In this document: positions 2-7,354 of the stretch, one piece after another | Layout: each line of letters opens with the position of its first letter | Numbering within the stretch: the stretch's first letter is position 1 | Assembly (NCBI GenBank): GCA_016839865.1 | Contig: JAEOTN010000255.1 | Coordinates: 1-7,354 of the forward strand | Length of the DNA: 7,354 nt | DNA from: Promethearchaeota archaeon | GTDB taxonomy: Archaea > Asgardarchaeota > Lokiarchaeia > Sigynarchaeales > MK-D1 | Direction of reading: 5' to 3' | Translations under genes and position numbers: made by a program | Notes under the pieces: model-generated | What the model saw: the letters and a program-made list of their open reading frames with translations, nothing else | Database searches by the model: none | What the model was told of the DNA's origin: nothing

Positions 2-517
2 ACGTTAGCAGATAATTTCACTTATAATAATCGTCTCTTACCAACCAATGTTATCCTCAAAGAACAACAAATTATGGTAGTTCACAACTCTATTGGTTCG
101 ATAGTAAAAAGTGCTGTAATCAAGGAACCGATTTTACTGGACAATTCGCTATATTATATAATTCTAGAAGATATTGATGAAGCTTATTATCTATGTGGGG
201 TTTTAAATTCACGGATAATAACTAATCTCGTACAGATGATAGGAAGCACAGGATCACGAGGTAGTTTACGAAACATTCATAAAAATCCTTATAATTTTCC
301 AATTCCTAAATTTACGGGATCATCTATCCAGCTAAAAATTGCTGATTATTCTAGAAAGCTGGAAAACCTATGCTCTCAAATAATTCAATCCACTAAGAAT
401 AAAACTCAACCGATCAAACCCCGGACTATCCAAAAACAGATTTTCAAAGATACCACCTATAAGGTTGTTCTATCTAAGTTAGATACTCTGACAAATACTT
501 TACTTTCGGGTAAATAG
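2..517 (+). CDS. C-terminal part of a DNA N6-adenine methyltransferase / type IIG restriction-modification protein (5' end outside window)
   Basis: The reading frame is open from base 2 with no stop before the first internal ATG at 74, so this is the last 171 residues of a longer gene rather than a small gene starting at 74. The visible part resembles the target-recognition end of Eco57I/TaqI-like adenine methyltransferases: a hydrophobic segment around DNSLYYIIL, then LCGVLNS (191-211), which recalls the 'LxxxLNS' helix of these domains, a glycine/serine-rich turn, and NPYNFPIPKF (284-313), the usual 'xIPIPKF' strand, followed by a helix rich in Ile, Leu and Lys. The catalytic NPPY and SAM-binding motifs would lie to the left and cannot be seen. 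The family assignment rests on these short motifs and the domain order. A type I specificity-like domain is the main alternative. The gene ends 76 bases before the next gene on the same strand. Confidence 0.6.
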   Translation, partial: TLADNFTYNNRLLPTNVILKEQQIMVVHNSIGSIVKSAVIKEPILLDNSLYYIILEDIDEAYYLCGVLNSRIITNLVQMIGSTGSRGSLRNIHKNPYNFPIPKFTGSSIQLKIADYSRKLENLCSQIIQSTKNKTQPIKPRTIQKQIFKDTTYKVVLSKLDTLTNTLLSGK

Positions 518-593: not shown

Positions 594-2153
594 ATGGAAC
601 CGTTTGAAATATTGATTCTGGTTATTTACAGTTTATTACTAGGAGCTATCATCGCAATTATCGTATTTCGTGACAAAATCTTTGAGAGAATAGAGAGACC
701 TAAAGTCAAAACACCTAGTCCCCGCGTCCAAAAGATCTTACAGAAATATTTCAAAGAAAAAGCAGTACAGCAAAAGGAACTGAAGAAGCTTGAAATTATT
801 GAACAAATGAAAGAGACAGTTCTAGATGAAATTGAAACTAAAAGCACGGAAATGACTGAAAAAGCCGAAGCGACAATAAAAACCCTAGAACCTGAAGAGC
901 ATCTTATAGAGCAAGGTGGGAAAATGTTCACCCAATTCAGTATTGATCTTGAAACTGCTCTACCACGAGATGAAAAAGAACGAGCAAAGGATATGGGGGA
1001 CCTTATAGATGCTATAAAAGTACTTGAGAGCTTGGATAAAGACCACTACGAACAAGATGTTAAAGACGACACAGGAAAGGGAATGTATTTTGACCAAATC
1101 ACTTCAAAATTGTATCGTGCTATGAGAAAAGAAGAATTCACACAGGAAAAAATATTTGTGTTTGATAAACTAGTGACTTTAGGATTAAAAACTCTGAAAA
1201 ACACCACTAGAAAAGATCTGGAAGAAGCTCTTAATTTCATGAAAGAAGCGTATTACATTAAGGATTATCAAGTAATCAATCCCGAGTTAACTATAATTAG
1301 CAGAAAAGGTGAGATTCCTCCATTTTCTAAATCAGAAACAGTAATTCTGGCTCTTGCCTACGATGAACATCCATTATCGTATTCAACCTTATTGAAACAA
1401 TCAAAATGGTCAAATGAATACGCTGATTCAGTAATCAACGATTTGATAGAAAAGGAAATTGCCCATAAAGAGGATGACTATATTAGTTTGATTGGATTCG
1501 AAACCCAAGAGGAAAAAGATGAGCGTCATGAACTTGAACTACAACTGGAAGCTCAAATGGAAGAAAAAGCCCGATTAAGAAAGGAGCAACAAGAAAAATT
1601 AGAACAGGAGCTTCTTAGAGAATCTAAACCAGTTCAAGATCAACCCCCGACTCCTGAATTTGAAATTAAGGAAGATGAATTTGAATCCATTATTGGAAGT
1701 GAATTTGTGGGAGACGACATCGATGAGGATCTAAGCGATGAAGCCATTATTGAAGGGGTTATTACTATTTATGAAAACTATGAACACATCAATGGTGGCC
1801 TCATGGATGTGCGATTAATTCATCAACTTTTGTCTGAATTATATCCTGACATAGAAATTAAACAAATTCTAAACACAGTTGACGCCTTGATAGAAATGGG
1901 ATTGGTTCGAACAATCTTTGAATTTCCAGAAACTACCGTACTCTTATTCAAAGAGATGGTTTTTGATGGAGATATGAAAATTCTACTTGGTAGTATCTTG
2001 AAAAATGGATGGATGGATAAATCCGAAATCTGCAATAAATTGAATTGGGATGAAGAGAGAACTCTCAATGTTATGAAACGACTCCAAGACGTGGAAGTTT
2101 TACGTTTGGATGAAAAAAATCGAGTTGTTATTCCTGGATTCTACATTCAATAA
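594..2153 (+). CDS. Membrane-anchored coiled-coil protein with three predicted winged-helix domains, function unknown
   Basis: The 519-residue protein starts with one hydrophobic segment (about residues 5-25), followed by basic residues, so the bulk should face the cytoplasm. Residues 43-100 are highly charged and helical, probably coiled coil, and 100-235 form a further helical region. Three stretches show the helix-helix-helix-wing pattern of winged-helix folds: 246-302, 382-452 and 457-517, each with a long third helix (for example EIKQILNTVDALIEMGLV) followed by a beta-hairpin-like wing. A Glu/Lys/Gln-rich coiled coil (303-343) and an acidic linker (355-382) separate the first from the last two. 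I recognise no named family. The C-terminal tandem pair after helical segments recalls ESCRT-II subunits (Vps22/Vps36/Vps25) or kleisin-associated KITE proteins, and a membrane-tethered DNA-binding regulator is equally possible; these are analogies from predicted fold only. The start at 594 gives the complete hydrophobic anchor. An oligo-T tract follows the stop. Confidence 0.85.
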   Translation: MEPFEILILVIYSLLLGAIIAIIVFRDKIFERIERPKVKTPSPRVQKILQKYFKEKAVQQKELKKLEIIEQMKETVLDEIETKSTEMTEKAEATIKTLEPEEHLIEQGGKMFTQFSIDLETALPRDEKERAKDMGDLIDAIKVLESLDKDHYEQDVKDDTGKGMYFDQITSKLYRAMRKEEFTQEKIFVFDKLVTLGLKTLKNTTRKDLEEALNFMKEAYYIKDYQVINPELTIISRKGEIPPFSKSETVILALAYDEHPLSYSTLLKQSKWSNEYADSVINDLIEKEIAHKEDDYISLIGFETQEEKDERHELELQLEAQMEEKARLRKEQQEKLEQELLRESKPVQDQPPTPEFEIKEDEFESIIGSEFVGDDIDEDLSDEAIIEGVITIYENYEHINGGLMDVRLIHQLLSELYPDIEIKQILNTVDALIEMGLVRTIFEFPETTVLLFKEMVFDGDMKILLGSILKNGWMDKSEICNKLNWDEERTLNVMKRLQDVEVLRLDEKNRVVIPGFYIQ

Positions 2154-2220: not shown

Positions 2221-3507
2221 ATGAGTGAAGAAGTTCCATGGTATGAAGATCCATTTATTCAAGAGATGATGGGTTTAATGGGCGGTCGGGCGATGCGAAG
2301 TATTATGTCTGGTTTTAAGGGAAATCTGGTATTTTCTGGCGAGAATGGGATTGGGGATGCGACTCAATATCTTGATAAATCCTTGTATGATGAAGAAAAA
2401 CGGATATTAGCCATTACCGATGATTTCACAAAAAAATTTCTACCTATAATGGAAGAAGCATTTTCTGAAACAAAATTTGAATTTAAGCTATGGGAAGGAG
2501 TAATTCCGGAAGTACCATATGAAACAATCGAAGAAGGAGTCAATATCTGTAATGAATTCGAACCTACTGTTCTTATGGCAATAGGAGGGGGATCAGTGAT
2601 GGACACAGCAAAAATTATCCATATTGCGTATGAGCGTCCAGAAATTAATCTGATGAATATTGATGCAGTATCTGGATCCATTGGACTACATCGCAAAGCT
2701 AAACATTTGTTAGCGATTCCCACGACGATTGGTACAGGATCCGAAGTCACTACTACAGCAATTTTTAATGACACTCGCAGAAAACCGCACAAAAAGATAG
2801 CTGTCGATTGTCCAGATATTTTGCCTACAATGGTGATCCTTCATCCGGATTTTGTGAAAACTTTACCTCCATTCTTAACCATGGCAACTGGATTAGATAC
2901 ATTTTCACACGCAATGGGAGCATATGTGTCTAACTACAACCATCCAATAACTACGGCACTTAATTATGCTGCTTTGAAGGAAACTCTTCATTACCTCCCC
3001 CGTTTGGTAAAACACGGTGCTAAAGATGTGGAAGGGTGGGAACACATGCAAATGGCGGCTCTAATGGCTGGTTTAGGGTTCTCTAATGCGATGCCTGGGA
3101 TAGAGCACGCAATGGGTCACAGTTTTGGGGCAGTCATGAACGTACATCATGGTTATTCGGTAGGATTATTCACTCCCTCTTCTGTAGCATGGCAATCCAA
3201 AGTAACAGAAAGGTGGAAAGACATGTGTCCCATGTTTGGAGTGAACACCAATGGATTATCTCGTCAAAAAGCATTGGAAGCACTTTGCGATAGTATTCAA
3301 ACTTTCATTCGAAGGGTTGGAGGAGCTGCTGCAGTTAAAGAGGTGGAACGTCCCAAGATTGATGAGAATAAGTATCGAGAGAATATTCCTATAATGGCAG
3401 AATATTCATTAAACGACATTGCCCATCTGGCCTCCTATCGTCCTATTAAATTATCAAACTATGTGGAAATTTATGAAAAACTGTGGGATGGGCACTTAGT
3501 ATATTAG
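2221..3507 (+). CDS. Iron-containing (group III) alcohol dehydrogenase
   Basis: This enzyme interconverts alcohols and aldehydes using NAD(H) or NADP(H) in the cytoplasm. The sequence carries the family's hallmarks: the nucleotide-binding GGGSVMDTAK (122-131), IPTTIGTGSEVT (166-177), and the metal-ligand motifs GLDTFSHAMGAYVS (224-237) and HAMGHSFGAVMNVHHG (296-311). By alignment with E. coli FucO, the four metal ligands are all present as Asp226, His230, His296 and His310, so it should be active. The family's usual Glu in HAxExY is Gly233 here. At 428 residues it is longer than the typical 380-400, mostly because of about 35 extra residues before the first beta strand (from about residue 34). 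The ATG at 2221 is supported by promoter spacing. It is the first gene of an operon with the AOR, which points to a shared aldehyde intermediate. The physiological substrate cannot be read from the sequence. Confidence 0.95.
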   Translation: MSEEVPWYEDPFIQEMMGLMGGRAMRSIMSGFKGNLVFSGENGIGDATQYLDKSLYDEEKRILAITDDFTKKFLPIMEEAFSETKFEFKLWEGVIPEVPYETIEEGVNICNEFEPTVLMAIGGGSVMDTAKIIHIAYERPEINLMNIDAVSGSIGLHRKAKHLLAIPTTIGTGSEVTTTAIFNDTRRKPHKKIAVDCPDILPTMVILHPDFVKTLPPFLTMATGLDTFSHAMGAYVSNYNHPITTALNYAALKETLHYLPRLVKHGAKDVEGWEHMQMAALMAGLGFSNAMPGIEHAMGHSFGAVMNVHHGYSVGLFTPSSVAWQSKVTERWKDMCPMFGVNTNGLSRQKALEALCDSIQTFIRRVGGAAAVKEVERPKIDENKYRENIPIMAEYSLNDIAHLASYRPIKLSNYVEIYEKLWDGHLVY

Positions 3508-3522: not shown

Positions 3523-5880
3523 ATGACAGAATTGCTAGGATATAATGGAAAAATCGCCTATGTTGATTTGTCTCTAAAAACCGTAAAAATCAAGGATTTA
3601 GATGAAAAAGATGCTCAAGATTATCTTGGGGGGGTTGGATTAAGTGCTAAATTAATTTATGATTTACTAACCGAAACCGATTACGAAACTTTAAAACACA
3701 ATCCTTTGGATCAAATTAATCCGCTTGTATTCGCAACAGGACCAATCACGGGAACCACACGACCAGCGTCGGGCAGATACTCGGTGTGTGGTATCTCTCC
3801 ATTAACAAATATTTGGGGGGAATCTACTTCAGGAGGATACTTTTGCATTGCATTACGCAATTGTGGTTTCGATGCAATAATCATTACTGGAAAATCTGAC
3901 AAACCTGTTTATCTATATCTTGCGAATTCAGAATTCCAGTTTAAAGACGCAAAACATCTATGGGGGGAAGATAGCTATGCAACACAAAAACTGATTAAGG
4001 AAGAATTACAGACGGAGAAAGTCAGAGTTGCATGTTGTGGTTTAGCAGGAGAGAAACTGGTTCGATATGCCTGTATTATGAATGATGACGGGAGAGCTGC
4101 AGGACGAACTGGGATGGGAGCACTGATGGGATCAAAGAATTTGAAAGCTATTGCGATAAATCCCGGAAAACCACCAAAAGTAGCGTCCCCAAAAGAAATT
4201 ACGGATCATCGGAAGAATATTGATTATTTATTATCAGACGATCTTGTGTCTAATATCACCTCAAAAGTGTTCCATCTATTTGGAACTAACTCCTACATGG
4301 ATATGGGGATGTTCGCGGGGGATGTACCTACAAAATATTTCACCGAAACTGAATTTCCTGCAGAGTTACTTACCACTAAAACGCTGAAAGAGGAATTTCC
4401 TATGTTTATTTCTGGATGTGCAGGATGCACGTTACAGTGTGCCAAACAAACAGAAATCGAGCTTGACGGTAAAATTCTAGTTGATGGACCAGAGTATGAG
4501 TCGATGGCAGCATTCGGATCCATGTCTGATATTTACGATGCAAAATCAGTTATACTAGCCCATCATGAAAGCAATGTCTATGGTATTGATACAATTTCAA
4601 GTGGTGTGGCAATTTCTTTCCTAATTTATCTTATAGAAAATGAGATAAACATACGTCAAATAAGACGACGGTTGAAGTTTACAATTCTAGAAGAGTTCCA
4701 CTGGGGTAATCCAAACCTTTTGCATAAATTATTAAAATTAATTGCTGAACGAAAAGGAATTGGGGATGTTTTAGCAGAGGGTGTGAAACGAATGGCTGAA
4801 ATATTAGGAGTGGATCCTGAATTAGCCGCTCATGTGAAAGGATTAGAGATTCCTATGCACGATCCTCGCGCAAATGCAGGACAAGCCTTATCTTATATGA
4901 CAGCTTGCGTAGGAGCAAACCACCAGAAATGTGATTGGTTTCAAGTAGAAAGTCAAACAATAATCTTTCCTGAATATGATGTTATCCCCGGAGAAAAAGA
5001 TGATATCACTGGACGTGAGCGTGGAGTAATAACATTCCAAGATATACGAGGAATCGATGATTCTGCCGTGAATTGTCAATTTCAGACCCCTCCAAAAATT
5101 AGTGATTACGCCAAATACATCTCATTGGCTACCGGACATCGATATACTCCTCAAAGTATTGTGAAAATGGGGGAGCGTATGACTAACATAAAACGCCTCA
5201 TCTCCTGCAATTTAGGTATTACTCGAGAAGACGATAAATTGCCAAAACATGTGCTAAAAGTATTCGAGACAGGACCAACTGCAGGCGTGAATCTCCAACT
5301 TGAAGAAAACTTGAAAACCTATTATAAATTACGTGGGTGGGATTGGAATACAGGTAGACCGACCGTTGAGAAGCTTCAAGAATTAAACATATTAGCTGGG
5401 GGAATCCAAAAAATTGATGAAACTGAAAGAAATTATCCTAGTTCTGAAGAAATGCAAGAAATGGAGCAGTTGAAAGAAAAATACTTACCTTTAGTGATAG
5501 AAAGCAAGATGGTTCCAGAAGATATTTTTAATTATTTACGTTTTGTGTGTTTGTTCGGTCGTTCGGATCAAGATTTTCAAGATGAATTCGGTAATGTTTC
5601 AGATATTTTTAGGTTGTCAGTTTTAGATCTTCCAGATGAGAAATGGTATTGGATGAAATTAGATAAAGGAAATTTCAGCGTGAAGAGAGGGACAGGCCCT
5701 AAACCTACCTTAGAATTGATTTTTAAGACTGAAAAAGCATTTATGGGTGTGATGAATCGCACATTAAACCCTGTAACGGCTGTAATCTCTGGTAAATTGA
5801 AAGTGAAACCGATAAATAAAGTTAGAATTTTTCAGAATTTCATGGGATTGTATATGGATAAGTTTGGATTGAAATTTTGA
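3523..5880 (+). CDS. Aldehyde:ferredoxin oxidoreductase fused to a C-terminal SCP2-like lipid-binding domain
   Basis: The AOR part oxidises aldehydes to carboxylic acids (or the reverse) with ferredoxin at a tungsten or molybdenum bis-pyranopterin site. Residues 7-212 form the N-terminal pterin-binding domain, with FATGPITGTTRPASGRY at 70-86 and RAAGRTGMGALMGSKNLKA at 191-209. The all-helical C-terminal part runs from about 225 to 620. The [4Fe-4S] ligands are Cys299, Cys302, Cys306 (CAGCTLQC) and Cys518. GPEYES (322-327), NVYGID (351-356) and MHDPR (445-449) match the pterin and active-site segments. A classical AOR would end near YYKLRGWDWNTGRPT (600-614). This protein continues to residue 785. 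Residues about 662-780 look like an SCP2 sterol-carrier fold: two helices, strands around WYWMKLDKGNFSV, a polar-hydrophobic strand TLELIF, then LNPVTAVISGKLKVKP, closely resembling the 'G.LnP..A...GKLKi.G' signature. The fusion is in one uninterrupted frame. It probably lets the enzyme act on hydrophobic aldehydes or dock to lipid; this is inference. Confidence 0.95.
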   Translation: MTELLGYNGKIAYVDLSLKTVKIKDLDEKDAQDYLGGVGLSAKLIYDLLTETDYETLKHNPLDQINPLVFATGPITGTTRPASGRYSVCGISPLTNIWGESTSGGYFCIALRNCGFDAIIITGKSDKPVYLYLANSEFQFKDAKHLWGEDSYATQKLIKEELQTEKVRVACCGLAGEKLVRYACIMNDDGRAAGRTGMGALMGSKNLKAIAINPGKPPKVASPKEITDHRKNIDYLLSDDLVSNITSKVFHLFGTNSYMDMGMFAGDVPTKYFTETEFPAELLTTKTLKEEFPMFISGCAGCTLQCAKQTEIELDGKILVDGPEYESMAAFGSMSDIYDAKSVILAHHESNVYGIDTISSGVAISFLIYLIENEINIRQIRRRLKFTILEEFHWGNPNLLHKLLKLIAERKGIGDVLAEGVKRMAEILGVDPELAAHVKGLEIPMHDPRANAGQALSYMTACVGANHQKCDWFQVESQTIIFPEYDVIPGEKDDITGRERGVITFQDIRGIDDSAVNCQFQTPPKISDYAKYISLATGHRYTPQSIVKMGERMTNIKRLISCNLGITREDDKLPKHVLKVFETGPTAGVNLQLEENLKTYYKLRGWDWNTGRPTVEKLQELNILAGGIQKIDETERNYPSSEEMQEMEQLKEKYLPLVIESKMVPEDIFNYLRFVCLFGRSDQDFQDEFGNVSDIFRLSVLDLPDEKWYWMKLDKGNFSVKRGTGPKPTLELIFKTEKAFMGVMNRTLNPVTAVISGKLKVKPINKVRIFQNFMGLYMDKFGLKF
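5506..5877 (+). other. SCP2-like domain at the AOR C-terminus
   Basis: This is a sub-region of the AOR gene, residues 662-785. It follows a charged, helical linker (about 630-660). The pattern of two N-terminal helices, an antiparallel sheet and a GKLKV motif before a final helix is that of the sterol-carrier-protein-2 superfamily, which binds fatty acyl chains, sterols and other lipids in a hydrophobic tunnel. Eukaryotic examples are fused to oxidoreductases such as the peroxisomal multifunctional enzyme type 2 and HSDL2. The match was made by eye, without a profile search. Confidence 0.75.
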
Positions 5881-6504: not shown

Positions 6505-6542
6505 CAGATCCGATTGTTGTAATTTGTATTGAGTTGAATAAA

Positions 6543-7354
6543 ATGTGGCAAGATTGGGCTGGAGTTATTCTTGGATTGCTATCCGGAATTTCTAATCATT
6601 CAGGTACGATTTTCCAAAAATTGGCACTTAATCGACTTCCCGATAATCAAAATAAAGTTACTAAACAATTGCTCAAAAATCCTTTGTGGTTGTTTGGTTT
6701 TTTTCTTAATTTAATTCTCACATCAATTTTTAATATATTCGCACATATGTGGGTAGGTCCTGCAGTTCTCCAGGGATTAAATGCTGTTGGATTAATAGTA
6801 TTAGCAATGGGTGCTGCTTACATCTTAAAAGAAAAACTGCAAGCTCCAGAAATAATCGGTATAATAATTAATATCATTGGTGTGACCATATTCGGACTGG
6901 CTAATCTTGTGGTTAAAAATGACACCTATGATTTCACAAACACGGGATTTTTGATTCGTATATCAATATTTACAGGAGTTTTTACTCTGGCTACATTAAT
7001 CTGTGATATCTTCAGAAAAAAAACTCCTATTCTTCCAGCTTTAGAATCCGGGTTTCTCTTTTTAATGACTGCTCCATGGATGTCTGTCATGATTGCAACT
7101 ATCGGAAAAGCTTTCACTGGTGCTGCGTCGACAAATGAAATAATTTTGTTTATAATATCTTGTTTCGTTCTTCCCGGGACAAATTACTTTGGAGTTGTTC
7201 GACTCCAACAAGCATATGCTAAAAAAAGTCGACAAGCAGCAAATCTAAGAATAGTCCAAATGATTCCGACACACATTGGGCCCTTAATTTACTTCTATCT
7301 GATTTATTTTGCTCCAACTCCTACTCCATTTTCCCTATCGCTTGCTTTAATTGG
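6543..7354 (+). CDS. DMT-superfamily (NIPA/EamA-like) multi-pass membrane transporter, 3' end outside window
   Basis: This frame starts at the ATG at 6543 and stays open to the right edge, giving 270 residues. It shows at least eight hydrophobic segments (about 6-22, 48-67, 73-94, 102-121, 135-154, 166-187, 198-217 and 240-257) and begins a ninth. The opening pattern GVILGLLSGISNHSGTIFQK, the segment GPAVLQGLNAVGLIVLAMGAAYILKEKL (72-99) with its 'xLxExL' end of a helix, and the following Gly-rich helix ending IFGLA are typical of the drug/metabolite transporter fold, in particular NIPA-type proteins, several eukaryotic members of which transport magnesium. Substrate cannot be assigned here, and an EamA-type exporter is the main alternative. 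It is transcribed divergently from the small membrane protein, so the two may share upstream control. Confidence 0.8.
   Translation, partial: MWQDWAGVILGLLSGISNHSGTIFQKLALNRLPDNQNKVTKQLLKNPLWLFGFFLNLILTSIFNIFAHMWVGPAVLQGLNAVGLIVLAMGAAYILKEKLQAPEIIGIIINIIGVTIFGLANLVVKNDTYDFTNTGFLIRISIFTGVFTLATLICDIFRKKTPILPALESGFLFLMTAPWMSVMIATIGKAFTGAASTNEIILFIISCFVLPGTNYFGVVRLQQAYAKKSRQAANLRIVQMIPTHIGPLIYFYLIYFAPTPTPFSLSLALI

Follow-up and report, generated by a model that had tools for sequence, protein, structure and literature searches.

The window analysed here comprises positions 1 to 7,354 of contig JAEOTN010000255.1 of a Promethearchaeota archaeon (assembly GCA_016839865.1), 7,354 nucleotides read on the forward strand. 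Its central feature is an open reading frame that joins an aldehyde:ferredoxin oxidoreductase (AOR) to a C-terminal SCP2 domain; 15 bp upstream of this frame sits a gene for an iron-containing alcohol dehydrogenase (Fe-ADH). We describe the fusion first, then its distribution, and then the gene neighbourhoods that bear on its possible function.

Two Pfam domains make up the catalytic part of the fusion, AFOR_N at residues 9-213 and AFOR_C at residues 246-623, with scores of 242 and 321 bits, far over the cut-offs. Eight AORs of the PDB align across the entire core, and their matches stop at query residue 622-625. Since AFOR_C also ends at residue 623, the fusion carries about 160 extra residues, in agreement with the first-pass annotation of this stretch, according to which the frame ran about 165 residues past the usual end of the family. 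The closest PDB match of the core is the Pyrococcus furiosus AOR, 1aor (E 5e-106). Residues C299, C302, C306, C518, E326 and H467 are unchanged in 12/12 fused proteins (alignment A1): the four cysteines align with the cluster-ligand cysteines of 1aor, E326 with Glu313, and H467 with His448. We take the cysteines to be ligands of a 4Fe-4S cluster, and the glutamate and the histidine to lie near the tungsten. By its domains and residues, the protein is a member of the aldehyde:ferredoxin oxidoreductase, or tungsten oxidoreductase (WOR), family; its core looks functional from the sequence, and tungstopterin binding and aldehyde oxidation are putative activities. No gene for a small iron-sulfur subunit is found alongside the fusion in the window, which fits Class I WOR, made of the large subunit only in the scheme given in section 6 of PMC13328260.

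The part that follows the core is, on the combined account of profile comparison and structure prediction, a real SCP2 domain. Scanned with the whole protein, residues 684-762 match PF02036 at 20.5 bits, under the cut-off of 21.3; it is only when the tail is scanned alone that the score, 24.3 bits (E 4e-5), exceeds it. Taken alone, the Pfam match is borderline: 7/10 related tails are matched at E<=1, the whole-protein scores of homologues P0002 and P0006 are under the cut-off at 12.5 and 14.5 bits, and the divergent fused AORs of loci L050 and L051 have no SCP2 match at E<=0.01. A search of the PDB with the tail profile gave nothing significant: an unrelated protein ranked ahead of SCP2, which came at E 0.36, and phmmer with the tail alone reached SCP2 at E 0.065. 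The comparison of two alignments with hhalign, 10 tails against 14 standalone PF02036 proteins, yields an E-value of 4.2e-26 and a probability of 99.7% over 138 columns. The AlphaFold2 (AF2) model of residues 640-785 is a confident SCP2 fold, with a predicted local distance difference test score (pLDDT) of 94.7 and a predicted template modelling score (pTM) of 0.87; its 26 Foldseek matches in the PDB at E<=1e-3 are all SCP2 proteins or alkylsulfatases and their YjcS relatives, whose C-terminal domain is SCP2-like.

The domain holds the motifs DFQDEF and LNPVTAVISGKLKVKP, together with a conserved C-terminal LKF; the motif LNPVTAVISGKLKV occupies residues 748-761 of the fusion. An SCP2-like pattern had been proposed for positions 5383 to 5880: the Pfam scan of the tail, hhalign, and the AF2 model with its Foldseek matches bear it out for residues 640-785, approximately, and residues 621-639 turn out to comprise a linker and, ahead of it, the last part of the AOR fold. 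The very end of the fusion (window 5842-5877, ..KFGLKF) hardly varies across the 12 A1 proteins, and the standalone SCP2 relatives lack it. The coordinates of all features are collected in Table 1.

Table 1. Features of the 7,354-nucleotide window, the fusion and its parts first.
Feature	Position	Strand	Description
AOR-SCP2 fusion protein	3523..5880	+	open frame, 785 aa; AFOR_N + AFOR_C + SCP2 tail
AOR core	3523..5391	+	residues 1-623; Pfam AFOR_N 6e-72, AFOR_C 1e-95
Linker	5392..5439	+	residues 624-639, variable in sequence (alignment); pLDDT <50 at 620-636 in full-length model
SCP2-fold domain	5440..5877	+	residues 640-785; predicted from Pfam, AF2, Foldseek, VIA-align, hhalign
Fe-ADH	2221..3507	+	428 aa; Pfam Fe-ADH 2e-31, ADH_Fe_C 2e-31
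Open reading frame, 162 aa	downstream of fusion	other strand	no Pfam match
Protein with hydrophobic N-terminus	594-2153		weak EAP30/Vps36 (ESCRT-II) match, 23.2 bits (cut-off 26.8); would agree with an Asgard origin
Partial NIPA-type magnesium transporter-like membrane protein	6534-7352		33 bits, over cut-off
Piece with weak match to TaqI-like C-terminal specificity domain	2-517		23.9 bits (cut-off 26.5)

The borderline Pfam score of the single sequence speaks for a tail that is an assembly join, or that resembles SCP2 by chance. We reject this explanation and give it next to no chance: the same tail is found on eleven further proteins, of 766-801 aa, the fused AORs form one clade with a Shimodaira-Hasegawa-like approximate likelihood ratio (SH-aLRT) support of 99, and the model of the SCP2 domain is a confident one. 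Eleven homologues with the tail, falling in one fused clade, indicate that the fusion is no assembly error. The clade comes from a quick tree search on 91 AOR rows picked from loci, 6 identical rows of 97 having been removed; some long branches are placed unsurely, and one partial gene (genome G062) was left out. The fused rows in this tree number 17, counting two one-gene pairs (P0005/L084 and P0006/L082), and the neighbour clade consists of 22 unfused AORs.

A scan of the genome contigs gives three fused loci, and the wider statements made here rest on 227 Asgard genomes, a single phylum. The tail profile matches 73/227 of these genomes at E<=1e-3, and the match lies on an AOR in 6/227 (G001, G002, G003, G060, G061 and G062). 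In G062 the fusion frame ends at a contig end, and the remaining tail opens another contig. No relative of the tail turned up in the plasmid and viral collections searched. AORs had been said to lack an SCP2 domain as a rule, and this is what is seen in three fusion-bearing genomes, G001, G003 and G061, where the eight other AORs that were read, 605-887 aa long, have none. One AOR of 887 aa (L075, 2205-4868) has about 260 additional residues at its N-terminus.

The operon-like pairing with Fe-ADH extends well beyond the window. Six further fused loci (L001, L002, L003, L050, L051 and L052) have a Fe-ADH homologue 7-72 bp upstream of the AOR, these homologues being 53-76% identical, and the nearest unfused AORs have one directly upstream in 24/24 loci, with a contig-end cut in L095, L107 and L111. 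Among further AOR loci read by eye, Fe-ADH lies upstream in 31/36, where L145 repeats the gene of L109. Because the unfused AORs carry the same upstream Fe-ADH, the pairing of ADH with AOR probably predates the SCP2 fusion. The Fe-ADH of the window has about 45 residues (PWYEDPFIQEMMGLMG...) ahead of its Fe-ADH domain (window 2221-2355); the homologues that precede fused AORs have similar N-terminal stretches, and the Fe-ADH of L139/L178 is shorter and lacks one.

We consider it somewhat probable that Fe-ADH and the AOR-SCP2 fusion oxidise a lipid-like primary alcohol, via the aldehyde, to the acid, with the chain held on SCP2. The dehydrogenase would turn alcohol and NAD(P) into aldehyde, and the tungsten AOR would turn the aldehyde into a carboxylic acid, its electrons going to ferredoxin; the SCP2 domain would keep hold of the hydrophobic chain and pass the aldehyde, which is reactive and dissolves poorly, on to the tungsten site before it could escape. 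In this scheme the SCP2 domain would bind the substrate or the product and would contact the AOR core, the net direction would be oxidation, and the chain, we infer, would be a long one, fatty or isoprenoid, such as that of alcohols from ether lipids.

A second line of evidence comes from SCP2 genes that are not fused. Several more distant AOR/Fe-ADH loci carry a standalone SCP2 gene (L139, L140, L131 and L074), and in L139 the genes for SCP2, Fe-ADH and AOR are contiguous on a single strand; L141 has a standalone SCP2 gene of a different type. The SCP2 proteins of the first four loci were used as seeds of alignment A7. All four seeds match PF02036, as do 8/8 further proteins of the A7 type, the latter all over the cut-off, and A7 matches 158/227 genomes at E<=1e-12. 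Neighbourhoods were collected for the first 60 of the 158 genomes by E-value, taking the best match of each and up to 6 kb on either side. Of these stretches, 19/60 are shorter than 9 kb, mostly at contig ends, so that neighbours may be missed; at L203, stops interrupt the genes, and no SCP2 frame was recovered by the script. Of the 60 loci, 46 have an AOR and 45 a Fe-ADH; 36 have both, and 55 have one or the other or both; in 31/60 the SCP2 gene is within 300 bp of an AOR or Fe-ADH on the same strand. With the four seeds excluded (n=56), the counts are 42, 41, 32 and 51. Arbitrary stretches taken from 20 of those genomes contain an AOR in 3/20 and Fe-ADH in 0/20. Fisher p-values for the A7 loci against this control and the one given below run from 1.5e-6 to 4e-10, in a sample where related species are not independent.

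This association bears on an explanation in which the SCP2 domain of the fusion binds no lipid at all, and serves instead as a module for docking, oligomerisation or capping of the active site, the substrate being small. The SCP2-like domain of Eis-type acetyltransferases is such a non-lipid module. Nevertheless, a docking role of this one domain gives no reason to expect the association of AOR and Fe-ADH with another SCP2 subfamily elsewhere among the genomes, nor does it account for the ligase context of eight AOR-SCP2 loci, described next, and we judge it rather unlikely.

Around the A7-type genes, the partners are combined in several ways. In 6/60 loci (L204, L220, L221, L224, L228 and L232), Fe-ADH and AOR form a single polypeptide of about 1,000 aa, whose gene directly adjoins that of SCP2; the domains of this fusion were confirmed for L232. 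A frame of the same kind is cut at a contig end in L199. In eight loci (L202, L207, L209, L210, L213, L215, L219 and L227), a gene for an AMP-binding protein lies between AOR and SCP2, all on one strand; that of L207 (4150-5853) has its best matches among long-chain fatty acid-CoA ligase models, below their cut-offs. In the tree, the AORs of such loci (L207, L209, L213) are far from the fused AORs. A partial ligase of this kind stands beside SCP2 at the contig end of L222. Genes similar to FabK/nitronate monooxygenase are seen in L198 (6440-7525, between SCP2 and Fe-ADH) and L234 (8523-9614), a family present in 10/60 loci.

One can also suppose the opposite of oxidation: the AOR would reduce a long-chain acid with ferredoxin, Fe-ADH would make the alcohol, and SCP2 would hold the acid, in the service of acid detoxification, storage, or the supply of lipid alcohols. 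In the ethanol route of Clostridium autoethanogenum, the ADH step comes after the AOR step. That ethanol production starts with a tungsten-dependent aldehyde:ferredoxin enzyme is reported in PMC12727526, that AORs reduce non-activated acids when given low-potential donors in PMC9295118, and the gene order at our loci is as compatible with reduction as with oxidation. However, the eight loci in which AOR and SCP2 have a ligase-like neighbour would suit a pathway where the acid is first made and then activated. The force of this argument is lessened by the possibility that the ligase acts on imported acid, and by the lack of Fe-ADH in those loci. We regard reduction as unlikely.

The first-pass annotation had gone as far as a long-chain or isoprenoid aldehyde, whose oxidation would be linked to ferredoxin, or an enzyme held at the membrane surface. 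The substrate gains from the A7-type genes near AOR and Fe-ADH and from the ligase-like gene of the eight loci, and is still one that we infer; the link of lipid oxidation to ferredoxin is plausible, and the reaction may run towards oxidation or towards reduction of the acid; nothing specific was found in favour of the membrane surface.

Taking oxidation of a carried chain as the working scheme, one is led to a broader picture, which we put forward as possible but somewhat doubtful: a carrier-based anaerobic pathway of Asgard archaea for lipid alcohols and aldehydes, in which an SCP2 carrier would act with AOR and, in most loci, Fe-ADH or, in one set of loci, with AOR and a long-chain acyl-CoA ligase that would convert the acid to acyl-CoA. 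Its parts would come in three arrangements, each encoded on its own, ADH fused to AOR next to an SCP2 gene, or AOR fused to SCP2 as in this window, and electrons of lipid chains would reach the ferredoxin and NAD(P) pools.

Several observations weigh against the oxidation of a chain carried on SCP2. The predicted SCP2 fold of the tail does not prove ligand binding. The full-length AF2 model of the fusion, built from 12 sequences, is too poor (pLDDT 49.7) for the SCP2 domain to be placed on the AOR core, and so offers no reliable route from the SCP2 pocket to the tungsten site. The genomes are rich in AORs, which is why 3/20 arbitrary stretches contain one. The eight ligase loci have no Fe-ADH within the stretches examined (6 kb reach), and AOR, Fe-ADH, ligase and SCP2 occur together in 0/60 loci. 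Behind the nearest unfused AORs, blastp with five reference SCP2s found no SCP2 gene in about 1.5 kb at 24 loci. Compared with A7 by hhalign, the fused-tail profile (A2) reaches a probability of 0.4%: the fused domain belongs to another subfamily than the SCP2 genes found beside AORs. Finally, the same script finds an AOR in 0/20 and Fe-ADH in 0/20 loci of standalone SCP2s related to the fused tail, these control loci having been chosen from standalone matches of the tail profile.

These last relatives, Asgard proteins of mostly about 140 aa (P0015-P0036 and their kin), are homologous to nearly the whole fused tail (E 4e-26), and 27/28 of those found carry PF02036; they differ from it in being unfused, and in having neither AOR nor Fe-ADH nearby in 20/20 loci. 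In a short SCP2 tree, many of whose inner branches are weak, the fused tails form their own clade. A simple origin for the fusion, the merging of an AOR-neighbouring SCP2 gene into the AOR, was considered and rejected: the tail matches the other subfamily, and the nearest unfused AORs have no SCP2 in their short flanks. Because the tail does not match A7, and the standalone genes of the subfamily it does match are not near AORs, SCP2 seems, from these sequence comparisons, to have been coupled to the ADH-AOR pair at least twice, as a gene neighbour and by fusion. It is tempting to see in this double coupling a convergence on one need, that of a carrier for a hydrophobic substrate.

In Asgard genomes, redox proteins of several kinds carry a fused SCP2 domain. 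Frames of about 800 aa ending in SCP2 are found in L010 (1-1815), L006 and L012, that of L010 adding Oxidored_FMN and pyridine nucleotide-disulphide reductase domains; other Asgard genomes have frames of 790-830 aa that match the tail profile and are like these three by length and profile alone. In L005 (841-2619) and L014 (1450-2535), the fusion partner of SCP2 is an NADPH-dependent FMN reductase domain, and the L005 protein has an N-terminal stretch of membrane-embedded appearance. In L049 (1942-5664) and L048, a standalone SCP2 gene adjoins a glycyl-radical enzyme and its activase; the enzyme of L049 matches trans-4-hydroxyproline dehydratase, over the cut-off.

No known archaea are closer relatives of eukaryotes than the Asgard group. 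Asgard genomes are reported to carry several AORs apiece, for which formaldehyde, acetaldehyde, or aliphatic and aromatic aldehydes are suggested as substrates (PMC11291895, PMC8163825). A lipid-carrier partner that recurs near AOR and Fe-ADH points to a concrete substrate class to test and, if the proposal is true, these archaea would have a route to draw reducing power from lipid chains. We found no description of an AOR-SCP2 fusion, or of a link of SCP2 with AOR, Asgard archaea or tungsten, in the openly licensed literature, preprints being outside this scope; the main text of the 2026 classification of tungsten oxidoreductases (PMC13328260) does not contain the words asgard, loki, fusion or sterol.

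It remains to compare the fusion with known systems. As in 1aor, there is a single large subunit, and the cysteines and the equivalents of Glu313 and His448 are kept; 1aor differs in having 605 residues, its match stopping short of the SCP2 tail, and in its Glu332, whose position is Leu345 in the alignment with the fusion. In the Pyrococcus enzyme, this glutamate binds the iron that bridges the dimer (PMC13328260, section 6). We know of no SCP2 partner in the AOR-ADH route of acetogens, for which no search was made; that route resembles ours by a tungsten AOR engaged in alcohol metabolism (PMC12727526), and differs by its short-chain product. The SCP2 domains of human MFE-2 and SCPx belong to eukaryotic proteins of other enzyme classes. 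The alkylsulfatases SdsA1, Pisa1 and SdsAP, which act on alkyl sulfates, likewise end in an SCP2-like domain that follows their catalytic part (PMC5426288), and they rank high among the structures that match the tail. Their catalytic fold, however, is that of metallo-beta-lactamases, unrelated to AOR, and the aligned parts are 9-21% identical to the tail.
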